DNA from: Chloroflexota bacterium
Lineage (GTDB): Bacteria; Chloroflexota; Anaerolineae; Epilineales; SHYO01
Assembly (NCBI GenBank): GCA_009692745.1
Contig: SHYO01000017.1
Coordinates: 1 to 39,193, forward strand
DNA: 39,193 nucleotides
Direction of reading: 5' to 3'
The position numbers and the translations under genes are program-made. The notes under the pieces were generated by a model. It searched no databases, was not told the DNA's origin, and worked only from the letters and a program-made list of their open reading frames with translations. Below are positions 34,788 to 39,193 of the stretch, in pieces; the stretch's first letter is position 1; each line of letters starts with the position of its first letter.

Positions 34788-35876
34788 TTATAAATGCGTA
34801 CACACAAGGTCGCCCATGTCGCTGGTGCTGGTAATGGCGCCACCGGGACCGACGATATCTTTGGTGCGATACCCTGCCTGCAACACCTTTTCTACCGCCG
34901 CCTCGACACGGGCAGCTTCCGGCTCCAACCCCAGGGAGTAGCGCAGCAGCAAGGCGGAGCTCAGAATCGTAGCCAGGGGATTGGCGATCCCCAACCCCGC
35001 AATATCGGGCGCCGTGCCGTGGATTGGCTCGTAGAGTCCCAGCGGCCGGCCGAAGCGGTTGAGATTGGCGCCTATAGAGGCCGAAGGCAACATGCCCATC
35101 GAGCCGGCCAACATAGAGGCTTCATCAGAGAGGATATCGCCGAACATATTCTCGGTGGCGATGACATCGAAATCTCCCGGGCGCCGGATCAGGTGCATCG
35201 AACAGGCATCGACCAGGATATCTTCCATAGTCACGTCGGGGAAATCCCGCGCTACTTCGTGGGTAATCTCGCGCCACAGCCGGCTGGTCTCCAGCACATT
35301 GGCTTTGTCGACGGAAGTCAGCTTCTTACGCCGGTTTTGGGCCAATTCAAAGCCCAGCCGCACCAGGCGCGTAATTTCCGCCTCGGAATAATAGAGAGTA
35401 TCGACCGCTTCACGGTTGGGCGGTTCGCCGCGCCGCTCTTTGGGCTCGCCGAAGTACAGGCCGCCGGTCAGCTCCCGCAGAATAATCAGGTCGACATCTT
35501 TAACCACCTCAGGTTTGAGCGTCGAGGCATTGATCAGCGCCGCATAGACCTTGACCGGGCGGATATTGGCATATAAGGCCAGCTCGCGCCGCACACCCAA
35601 CAGGGCCATTTCCGGGCGCTGCTTCGCGCGCGGGTCGCTCCATTTTGGTCCGCCCACGGCGCCCAACAGCACAGCATCGCACCGCCGCGTCAATGCCAAT
35701 GTCTCGGGCGGTAAAGCCACCCCGGTTTGATCGATGGCTATACCGCCCAGCAGGCCCTCGCGGAATTCAAATTGGTGGCCGAATAGTCGCCCCACGGCTT
35801 TCAAAACCTTGACACCTTCGGCGACCACATCCGGCCCAATGCCGTCACCGCCAACCCTGGCTATTGTAGCTTGCAT
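34788..35876 (-). CDS. leuB: 3-isopropylmalate dehydrogenase
   Basis: [114 protein letters not shown]. Confidence 0.97.
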
Positions 35877-36027
35877 AGATACCCCCCAATTAGTATGGGC
35901 TCCGATGATAACATATGTGATGGGGTTGGGTCAATTTATGAGCCGTAAAACCCCACTGGATTTTTTAGGTATTTAGGCGTATCCTTGGGCTGATAACCGC
36001 CCCGTCCCTCCACATGGCGGTCGTTAA

Positions 36028-36043
36028 GCTGAGTACTCTCAGC
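36028..36043. repeat. GCTGAGTACTCTCAGC (dispersed family, copy 5)
   Basis: Exact 16-mer in the divergent leuB / MgtE_N-CBS intergenic region. Confidence 0.9.
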
Positions 36044-36169
36044 ATACTGCCTCAGAAGTATTTTTGGACGATCAAAGCATTGTCCAACCGGGTTTAAGAC
36101 TGCGCGTTGACGAAGATTCATGGTAATTTGCCAAGGACAAGGTCCCTATCCCTGCCGCCGAGGTGCGCC

Positions 36170-37426
36170 ATGCCTTACGTAAGTGATTTGATGGGAAAAC
36201 CGGTTGCTGATATCGATGGAGAGCGTGTGGGCCAGGTGGAAGATTTGATTGCTGCCGCACGCGATGATATGCCCTTGCCACAGCTTAAAGCCCTGGTCGT
36301 CAAGCGACAACGCGGCCTGCTCATCGTCCCGCTCAGTGCCGTAGCGGTCTTGATCGCCCCGGCAATTCCTTTGACGCTGCGCCTGGACCAGATTATCCCG
36401 CTGAGTCCTGATGAGCGGGATTTCTACCTGGTGCGGGATATCCTGGATAAACAGATTATCGACATCAACGGGGTCCGCTTGGTGCGGGTGAACGATGTAG
36501 AGATTGTGCGGGTCGGCAACCATTTCTACATTTCGAACGTCGATATTGGCGGCCTGGGCCTCTTGCGCCGCCTGGGATTGGCCCGCCTCACCCAAAAGAT
36601 CGTCGCGCGCCTGGGCCGGGAGTTGCCCCCCGGCATGATCTCCTGGCATGATATGGAGCGCTTGCCCGGCAGCCAGACAATGCGCCTGCGGGTGCCCAGC
36701 GACAAAATAACCAATCTGCATCCGGCCGACCTGGCCGAGATTCTCAGCGACCTCAGCCGGGCGGAGAGCAGCAAATTTCTGGAATCGCTGGATGTTAAAA
36801 CCGTGGCCGATACGCTGGAAGCCGTCGAGCCGGAATTCCAGGCGAACCTGGTCGAAACCATGGACGACGAAAGGGTCGCCGACGTCTTGGGGGAGATGTC
36901 CCCCGATGAGGCCGCCGATCTGCTGGCAGAATTGCCCGAGGATCGCAGCGAAGAGCTGCTCAGGTTAATGGAGGACGAAGACGCGCAGGATGTACGCAAG
37001 CTGCTGGCCTACCCGGAAGATTCGGCCGGCGGCATCATGACCACCGAATATATTGCTCTGTCACCCAAACTAACCGCCGCCGAGGCCATCCAGGTGCTGC
37101 GCGAGACGGCCCATGAAGCCGAAACCATCTTCTATATTTACATAACCGATGTGGAAAATCACCTGTTGGGGGTCCTTTCGCTGCGCGACCTGGTGCTGGC
37201 CCAGCCAGAAACCCCGATTACCGATTTTATGCACCAGCGTATGGTGAGTGTGAATTTGCTCGACGCCCAAGACAAGGTGGCGGAGATGATCTCTAAGTAT
37301 AACTTGGTAGCCGTGCCGGTAGTGGATGACGACCACCGGCTGCAGGGGATTGTTACCGCCGACGATGCGCTGGACAAAATCATCCCTACTGCCTGGAAAA
37401 AACGCCTGCCGCGCCTATACCATTAA
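36170..37426 (+). CDS. PRC-barrel + MgtE N-terminal domain + CBS-pair soluble protein (no MgtE channel domain)
   Basis: PRC-like MPYVSDLMGKPVADIDGERVGQVEDLI; MgtE_N-like LHPADLAEILSDLSRAESSKFLESLDVKTVADTLEAVEPE...MSPDEAADLLAELPEDRSEELLRLM; MTTEYIALSPKLTAAEAIQVLRE CBS pair; ends at KKRLPRLYH with no TM helices. Confidence 0.88.
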   Translation: MPYVSDLMGKPVADIDGERVGQVEDLIAAARDDMPLPQLKALVVKRQRGLLIVPLSAVAVLIAPAIPLTLRLDQIIPLSPDERDFYLVRDILDKQIIDINGVRLVRVNDVEIVRVGNHFYISNVDIGGLGLLRRLGLARLTQKIVARLGRELPPGMISWHDMERLPGSQTMRLRVPSDKITNLHPADLAEILSDLSRAESSKFLESLDVKTVADTLEAVEPEFQANLVETMDDERVADVLGEMSPDEAADLLAELPEDRSEELLRLMEDEDAQDVRKLLAYPEDSAGGIMTTEYIALSPKLTAAEAIQVLRETAHEAETIFYIYITDVENHLLGVLSLRDLVLAQPETPITDFMHQRMVSVNLLDAQDKVAEMISKYNLVAVPVVDDDHRLQGIVTADDALDKIIPTAWKKRLPRLYH

Positions 37427-37449
37427 CGCACCGTAAGGATTAAAGTGCT

Positions 37450-38706
37450 ATGGGACTACAGCAACGACTTAAGCCCTTACGGGTGCGATTGCTGGTCATT
37501 CTAGCAGTACTAGGTCCGGGAATTATCACGGCGAATGTCGATAATGATGCCGGTGGCATTACCACCTATTCTGTGGCCGGGGCGCATTACGGCTACGGTC
37601 TGCTGTGGATGATTCCCCTGGTGGCGCTGGCGCTGATCGTGGTGCAGGAGATGAGCGCCCGGCTGGGGGTGGTTACCGGCAAAGGTTTGGCGGACCTGAT
37701 CCGCGAGAGCCTGGGGGTGCGCCTGACCGCCCTGATCCTGGGCCTCCTGGTGATCGCCAACCTGGCCAATACCGTCAGTGAATTTGCCGGGGTAGCCGCC
37801 AGTATGGAGATATTCGGCGTCAGCAAGTATATCTCTGTGCCGCTGGCAGCCATCGGTGTCTGGTTACTGATCGTCAAAGGTAATTACAAAGTCGTCGAGC
37901 GCATCTTTTTGCTGGCCAGCACCCTTTACCTGGCCTATATCATCTCCGGCCTGCTGGCGCGCCCGGCCTGGGATGAGGTGTTGCGCGCCACCGTGACCCC
38001 CTCTTTCCACCTGGAGACTGGCTACGTGGTGCTGATGCTGACCATTATCGGCACTACCATCGCTCCCTGGATGCAATTCTACCAACAGTCGTCTATCGTC
38101 GATAAGGGCTTAAAAGTCTCTGATTATGCCTATGAACGGCTGGACGTGGTGGTGGGCTCGATCTTCGCCGTCATCGTAGCCGCTTTTATCGTAATCTCCT
38201 GCGCCGCCACCCTCTATACCCACGGGTTGCGGATTGACACAGCTAAGGATGCCGCCGAGGCGCTGGGTCCGCTCGCCGGGCCGTACGCTGCCTCCCTCTT
38301 CGCCCTGGGACTGTTAAATGCCTCGGTCTTTTCGGCGGCTATTCTGCCCCTTTCCACGGCGTATGTGGTCTGCGAAGCCTTTGGCTGGGAGGCGGGGGTC
38401 AGTCGCAGTCTGCAAGAAGCCCCCATCTTCTTCGGCATCTATGCCACTTTGATTATCCTGGGGGCCGGCATTATCCTGTTGCCTATTCCCTCACTGATTC
38501 AGGCCATGCTCGCCAGCCAGACCCTGAACGGCGTGCTCTTGCCGGTCATCCTGCTGGTGATGCTGCGCCTGATCAACGATAAGCGTCTAATGGGAAATTA
38601 TGTTAACAGCCGCTTCTTTAACATCCTGTCGTGGCTGATCGTGATCGCCTTGATCGTGCTAACCGCCATCCTGGTGCTCGTCAGCATTATCCCAGGACTG
38701 ACCTAA
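37450..38706 (+). CDS. NRAMP (SLC11) superfamily divalent metal transporter, noncanonical metal-site motifs
   Basis: 11-TM-like; LAVLGPGIITANVDNDAGGITTYSVAGAHYGYGLLWMIPLVALALIVVQEMSARLGVVTGKGLADLIRE; GTTIAPWMQFYQQSS; GLLNASVFSAAILPLSTAY. 23 nt downstream of the MgtE_N-CBS gene. Confidence 0.88.
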   Translation: MGLQQRLKPLRVRLLVILAVLGPGIITANVDNDAGGITTYSVAGAHYGYGLLWMIPLVALALIVVQEMSARLGVVTGKGLADLIRESLGVRLTALILGLLVIANLANTVSEFAGVAASMEIFGVSKYISVPLAAIGVWLLIVKGNYKVVERIFLLASTLYLAYIISGLLARPAWDEVLRATVTPSFHLETGYVVLMLTIIGTTIAPWMQFYQQSSIVDKGLKVSDYAYERLDVVVGSIFAVIVAAFIVISCAATLYTHGLRIDTAKDAAEALGPLAGPYAASLFALGLLNASVFSAAILPLSTAYVVCEAFGWEAGVSRSLQEAPIFFGIYATLIILGAGIILLPIPSLIQAMLASQTLNGVLLPVILLVMLRLINDKRLMGNYVNSRFFNILSWLIVIALIVLTAILVLVSIIPGLT

Positions 38707-38964: not shown

Positions 38965-39104
38965 ACCGACGTAAACAATACTGATAAGATTGTCTCACCA
39001 TTGACTTTTTGGTATTGTCCCTCATTTTCCTTGATGAGGTAGTGGAGTAATGAAATGTGGGCGTATCCTCGAAAGCATTATCCGTGCTGATCGAGGGTAC
39101 AAAA

Positions 39105-39193
39105 ATGGACTGGGAAACACTTTATTGTCCCAACAAACGCTGTCGATACTATGGCATCTCGTTTCGGCAGGGCAAAATGGTCAAAAATGGCTC
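39105..39193 (+). CDS. Transposase N-terminus (zinc-ribbon, IS1-like), truncated by window edge
   Basis: MDWETLYCPNKRCRYYGISFRQGKMVKNG...: N-terminal CPN..C zinc-ribbon motif of IS1-like transposases; open to the right edge. Confidence 0.6.
   Translation, partial: MDWETLYCPNKRCRYYGISFRQGKMVKNG

Follow-up and report, generated by a model that had tools for sequence, protein, structure and literature searches.

A free PRC-MgtE_N-CBS protein encoded beside an NRMT-clade SLC11 transporter in a Chloroflexota genome: a candidate Mg2+ sensor acting in trans

The window (i.e., the whole 39,193-nucleotide stretch of Chloroflexota DNA analysed here) carries a gene for a soluble protein composed of PRC, MgtE_N, and CBS domains, followed by a gene for a transporter of the NRMT (Nramp-related Mg2+ transporter) clade (Table 1). 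We think it probable that the pair forms a two-gene Mg2+ uptake unit, in which an NRMT importer is accompanied by a trans-acting Mg2+ feedback subunit. An earlier note, made from the letters of the window alone, had proposed that a sensor detached from MgtE steers an SLC11-type transporter. The first half of that proposal, that an MgtE-derived sensor stands free beside an SLC11-type Mg2+ transporter, has good support: the linkage is conserved, the Mg2+-site residues are retained, the plug helix is lost, and there are homologues fused to a channel in cis. The other half, that the sensor controls the transporter, is what we infer from these features.

Table 1. Positions in the window of the sensor gene, its domains, and the transporter gene
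Feature	Coordinates	Strand	Basis
Free PRC-(second PRC-like)-MgtE_N-CBS-CBS protein, 418 aa; candidate trans-acting Mg2+ sensor subunit	36170..37426	+	Pfam, AlphaFold model, superposition
N-terminal PRC barrel, aa 1-68	36170..36373	+	Pfam PRC aa 3-27, 2.8e-7; strand pattern in model
Second PRC-like block, aa 84-158	36419..36643	+	Weak PRC matches, model strands, conservation
MgtE_N domain, aa 183-284	36716..37021	+	Pfam 2.7e-28
CBS pair, ~aa 287-405	37028..37384	+	Pfam CBS x2, 3.8e-16
Short basic C-terminal tail PTAWKKRLPRLYH, at the place of the MgtE plug helix	37385..37423	+	
NRMT-clade NRAMP/SLC11 transporter, 418 aa	37450..38706	+	PF01566, nearest solved relative EleNRMT, site residues

The upstream product had been described as an MgtE N domain and CBS pair lacking a membrane channel, and both Pfam and the AlphaFold model bear this out. 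The MgtE_N domain and CBS pair of MgtE transporters are present (Pfam, superposition), the MgtE channel domain (PF01769) has no Pfam match in the open reading frame, and the score against the MgtE family model (TIGR00400) lies under its cut-off. The model, which was built from 61 relatives (mean pLDDT, 87.5), begins with a barrel and a second, barrel-like block into which helices are inserted; the N domain, which is helical, and the CBS pair follow, and a membrane part is absent. The cytosolic domain of MgtE with bound Mg2+ (2yvy) fits the MgtE_N/CBS portion of the model with an rmsd of 1.6 A over 230 columns. A profile search returned no solved structure spanning both the PRC block and MgtE_N/CBS.

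The second gene was likewise as the earlier note had it, an NRAMP-superfamily transporter gene that lies on the same strand and starts 23 nt past the end of the sensor gene. Its ATG is preceded by an SD-like TAAGGA, and its product matches Nramp (PF01566) at 2e-99. On the basis of its sequence, the transporter belongs to the NRMT clade. The nearest solved relative is EleNRMT (7qia; E, 8e-125), far ahead of the next one (8e-30) and of MntH-type proteins, and the EleNRMT residues D55, G58, T224, A227, E133, and Q379 correspond to D33, G36, T202, A205, E111, and Q357 of the window protein. The latter therefore carries the DxxG-TxxA metal-site signature (D33xxG36, T202xxA205) and not DxxN-AxxM. 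The positions of the proton-path histidines in helix 6b are occupied by W207 and Q212 (W and N in EleNRMT), and the score against the MntH model NF001923 is 150.5 bits, under the cut-off of 430. No Rfam match to an M-box or other riboswitch was found in the window or in the upstream region 35870-36200; the M-box is a feature of some NRMT members and is not required for membership.

Mg2+ is probably the main substrate of this NRMT. The substrate is not certain, since Acidobacterium capsulatum has such a pair too and its NrmT imports mainly Mn2+. We dropped the idea that the site residues can tell an Mg2+ from an Mn2+ transporter, because the same eight letters occur in a relative from Acidobacterium sp. 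(L207) and the signature is thus unable to exclude Mn2+. A pair devoted to Mn2+ or another transition metal, with a sensor that answers to Mn2+ as suggested for A. capsulatum, would agree with this identity and with the full rescue of an Mn2+ import defect, and weak rescue of an Mg2+ defect, by the A. capsulatum NrmT, whose gene adjoins an MgtE-like gene (PMC4072509). We nevertheless regard such a role as unlikely: among characterised relatives, the Mg2+ transporter EleNRMT is closest in sequence, a separate canonical MntH-type NRAMP with the DxxN-AxxM site is encoded on contig C33 of the same genome, and the source assembly (83% complete) yielded no MgtE channel, although it does encode one CorA. 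A partial third NRAMP match lies on contig C177.

The earlier note had named a lack of conserved linkage outside the source genome as one result that would refute its idea; the pairing in fact extends far beyond that genome, which favours the idea. Among complete free sensors with enough downstream sequence (n = 99, one cut by a contig end being excluded; phylum judged Chloroflexota from named best matches), 76 of 99 loci have an NRMT gene within 400 nt of the sensor gene. In the reverse direction, 80 NRMT loci from named genomes were fetched, five of which are cut off beside the NRMT gene. A sensor lies within the fetched stretch in 65 of the 75 remaining loci, a few of them more than 1 kb from NRMT; L184, with only a weak CBS match, is not counted among the 65. 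These loci span Acidobacteriota, Thermodesulfobacteriota, Bacillota, Omnitrophota, Chloroflexota, Nitrospirota, and others, and 127 of the 133 linked pairs are on the same strand with the sensor upstream. Since the adjacency recurs across many phyla, nearly always with the same strand and order, it is not due to chance. The window has the arrangement that marks the NrmT-linked ancillary protein, i.e., a free homologue of the MgtE cytosolic domain beside an NrmT gene. In all ten genomes whose NRMT locus has no sensor nearby, a sensor is encoded at another place; in one of them it is divided into two adjacent pieces (G307:C41:136767-138003), a division that recalls the one reported for C. acetobutylicum. 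The genomes of two cut-off loci (L151 and L214) gave CBS matches only.

No fusion of NRMT and sensor genes was found among the fetched loci. Long open frames covering both genes (e.g., L026, L131, L178, and L213) were rejected as fusions because the genes lie in different frames, and sensor frames of 617 to 751 aa were rejected because the fused partner is an MgtE channel. Several other arrangements were seen around the pair. Class-mates of the window (L124, L125, L127, and L128) have an extra small CBS-pair protein downstream of NRMT, and in L126 (6600-7979) a full MgtE occupies that place. At the end of the window itself (39100-39193), the contig breaks off inside an open frame whose first part contains a CPxxxC motif and looks, by eye, like the start of an IS transposase.

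The soluble protein could also be an Mg2+ sensor for other targets (e.g., CTP synthase or Mg2+-dependent enzymes) that is merely co-expressed with the importer. Nine Chloroflexota sensors adjoin a CTP synthase gene (pyrG) with no NRMT next to them (L094, L096, L106, L108, L109, L110, L113, L114, and L132), sensor and NRMT genes lie apart in the ten NRMT genomes mentioned above, and the near-complete genome G283 (99%) has a sensor and no detectable NRMT match. This explanation seems to us rather improbable, as the gene that most often adjoins the sensor gene in many phyla is, by a wide margin, NRMT, and the cis-fused homologues put the same module on an Mg2+ channel. The genomes with pyrG-adjacent sensors belong mostly to one family (f29), and those that were searched carry an NRMT-like gene elsewhere.

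The residues of the sensor were mapped on TtMgtE, with site assignments taken from PMC5882242. In MgtE_N, D214, D246, and D250 of the window protein align with E59, D91, and D95; in the CBS pair, D399 and D402 align with D247 and D250, and N378 replaces D226. Across the NRMT-linked sensors (n = 133), D95 is kept in 131, D247 in 118, and D91 in 112, and the E59 position is acidic in 122. The residues of the Mg4, Mg6, and Mg7 sites, which are required for MgtE closure (PMC5882242), are therefore retained in most linked sensors, and the free sensor is predicted to bind Mg2+. Mg5 is weaker: the D226 position holds N in the window protein and in 84 of the 133 linked sensors, although D250 is retained (as D402). 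Where MgtE has the ATP-stacking F227, the window protein has L, as do most of the proteins compared, channel-attached relatives among them, which makes ATP sensing uncertain. Given these two replacements in the window protein (D226 to N and F227 to L), MgtE-like sensing is not fully retained.

The output end of the module differs from that of MgtE. At the position of the plug acid E255, all 29 channel-attached homologues have an acidic residue, versus E or D in 36 of 133 free sensors. The positions of plug-helix residues E255, E258, and D259 are taken in the window by T407, K410, and K411 (by ungapped extension of the alignment), and the protein ends PTAWKKRLPRLYH. In place of the EExxED plug motif of channel-attached homologues, free sensors have a short, mostly basic tail, which reads PTAWKKRLPR in the window and in many Chloroflexota sensors. 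Over the compared stretch, the net charge averages +1.1 in NRMT-linked and -8.6 in channel-attached proteins, the stretches being not strictly equivalent.

An N-terminal PRC block is present in all complete free sensors of the set; proteins lacking it are contig-end cuts or small CBS proteins. Pfam recognises PRC at an E value of 0.01 or better in 55 of 61 alignment members. Matches of the second block are weak (E, 0.08 in the window, 0.0013 in L135, and 0.0017 in L187; none in three others), and its PRC identity is accordingly only weakly suggested by sequence. The family's most conserved positions (D93, Q95, D109, and R134) fall in this second block, and W159 comes just after it: D109 and R134 occur in 133 of 133 linked sensors and W159 in 131 of 133. 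The constant residues of the second block are equally present in the channel-fused forms and so are not specific to NRMT docking.

These channel-fused forms are nine fetched open frames of 617 to 751 aa, in which the PRC-MgtE_N-CBS order is followed by four to six hydrophobic segments. The MgtE channel (PF01769) was confirmed by Pfam in L035 and L042, and a genome search also gave a match in L043 and at the L047 site. In L042 and L043, the full channel gene immediately precedes an NRMT gene, and the open frames of the two overlap. On the sensor tree, the cis and trans states require only two changes. Because this tree is unrooted and weak at its deepest split, we do not claim a direction of evolution (i.e., loss or gain of the channel). 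Nor do we claim an exchange of partners in class-mates L008 to L013, whose sensors and NRMTs are 53 to 56% and 35 to 38% identical to those of the window, because an AU test did not reject grouping of their NRMTs with that of the window (p = 0.118). L136, with an NRMT about 75% and a sensor 45% identical to those of the window, is a single but better hint of such exchange. PRC-MgtE_N-CBS might even be a general, exchangeable Mg2+-sensing subunit that gates MgtE in cis, NRMT in trans, and, where it is encoded next to them, other Mg2+-dependent proteins (possibly CTP synthase), with PRC as the shared docking part, an idea that we offer as speculative and rather unlikely.

We consider a trans-acting feedback subunit the best and most economical reading of the soluble protein, because the compaction of MgtE at the N/CBS interface appears retained while the part that acts on the MgtE pore is gone. 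The NRMT-type SLC11 importer would bring in (partly hydrated) Mg2+ without proton coupling. On binding Mg2+, the sensor would become compact at its N/CBS interface. Rather than pulling the plug helix of a channel of its own, it would then use the PRC block, the short basic tail, or both to dock on NRMT from the cytosol and slow import; when Mg2+ drops, the sensor would relax and import would resume. Dimerisation of the sensor, the docking surface (PRC block and basic tail), and the negative direction of control are presumed parts of this scheme. Several observations speak against the feedback subunit: the lack of an NRMT-sensor fusion, the sensor of G283 without an NRMT, the sensors beside CTP synthase with NRMT elsewhere, the incomplete retention of MgtE-like sensing, the apparent Mn2+ import by the A. 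capsulatum NrmT despite its partner, and two findings that also fit no role for the partner (PMC4072509), namely transport by C. acetobutylicum NrmT without it and the lack of better rescue on co-expression of the A. capsulatum one. It is very unlikely that the sensor is instead an Mg2+ chaperone or positive factor accepting incoming ions, an alternative offered by Shin et al. in 2014 (PMC4072509), as that same co-expression brought no gain and the retained sensor residues are MgtE gating sites.

Neither the sensor/NRMT pairing nor the idea of feedback in trans is new. Shin et al. (2014; PMC4072509) named NrmT, reported that most NrmT genes adjoin a gene whose product resembles the cytosolic domain of MgtE by homology, proposed a cytoplasmic feedback or chaperone role for this neighbour, and found that NrmT proteins of C. 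acetobutylicum transport without the partner. The structures of EleNRMT were solved by Ramanadane et al. (2022; PMC8806188) for the transporter alone, and the words CBS, operon, and cytoplasmic domain did not turn up when its text was searched. The papers found demonstrate no role for the ancillary gene of 2014. The PRC block and the plug-helix loss of the sensor appear to be undescribed in the papers searched, since the main text of Shin et al. does not use the term CBS (PMC4072509) and none of those papers joins PRC-barrel, CBS domain, and magnesium. What the present analysis adds is the broad linkage, the universal PRC block, the retention of the N/CBS sites together with loss of the plug helix, and the channel-fused module in relatives. 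The question addressed is how NRMT importers avoid Mg2+ overload. The residue pattern of the sensor (sites kept, plug lost, basic tail and PRC conserved) leads to specific mutants for examining NRMT control, for which the channel-fused PRC-MgtE proteins are a natural control.

Compared with known systems, the window transporter shares the NRAMP/LeuT fold family with MntH-type NRAMPs (DraNramp and EcoDMT) but differs in its metal site and in lacking the proton-path histidines. The sensor resembles the MgtE channel (TtMgtE; 2yvx/2zy9) in its N domain and CBS pair, the acidic residues of the N/CBS interface, and the fold, whereas it has no channel domain or plug helix, carries an extra PRC block, and has its partner in trans. 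With the PRC-MgtE_N-CBS-MgtE channels of Chloroflexota (L035 to L039, L042, L043, L046, and L047), it has the order PRC-MgtE_N-CBS in common, including the LDKQIVD...RRLG block; those proteins, however, have their channel in cis and the EExxED plug helix. The closest likeness is to the NrmT/NRMT systems with an MgtE-like neighbour (PMC4072509; EleNRMT, PMC8806188), from which the window pair differs in that no M-box riboswitch was found upstream, and with which it shares the clade, the site signature, the neighbouring gene, and the proposed feedback role.
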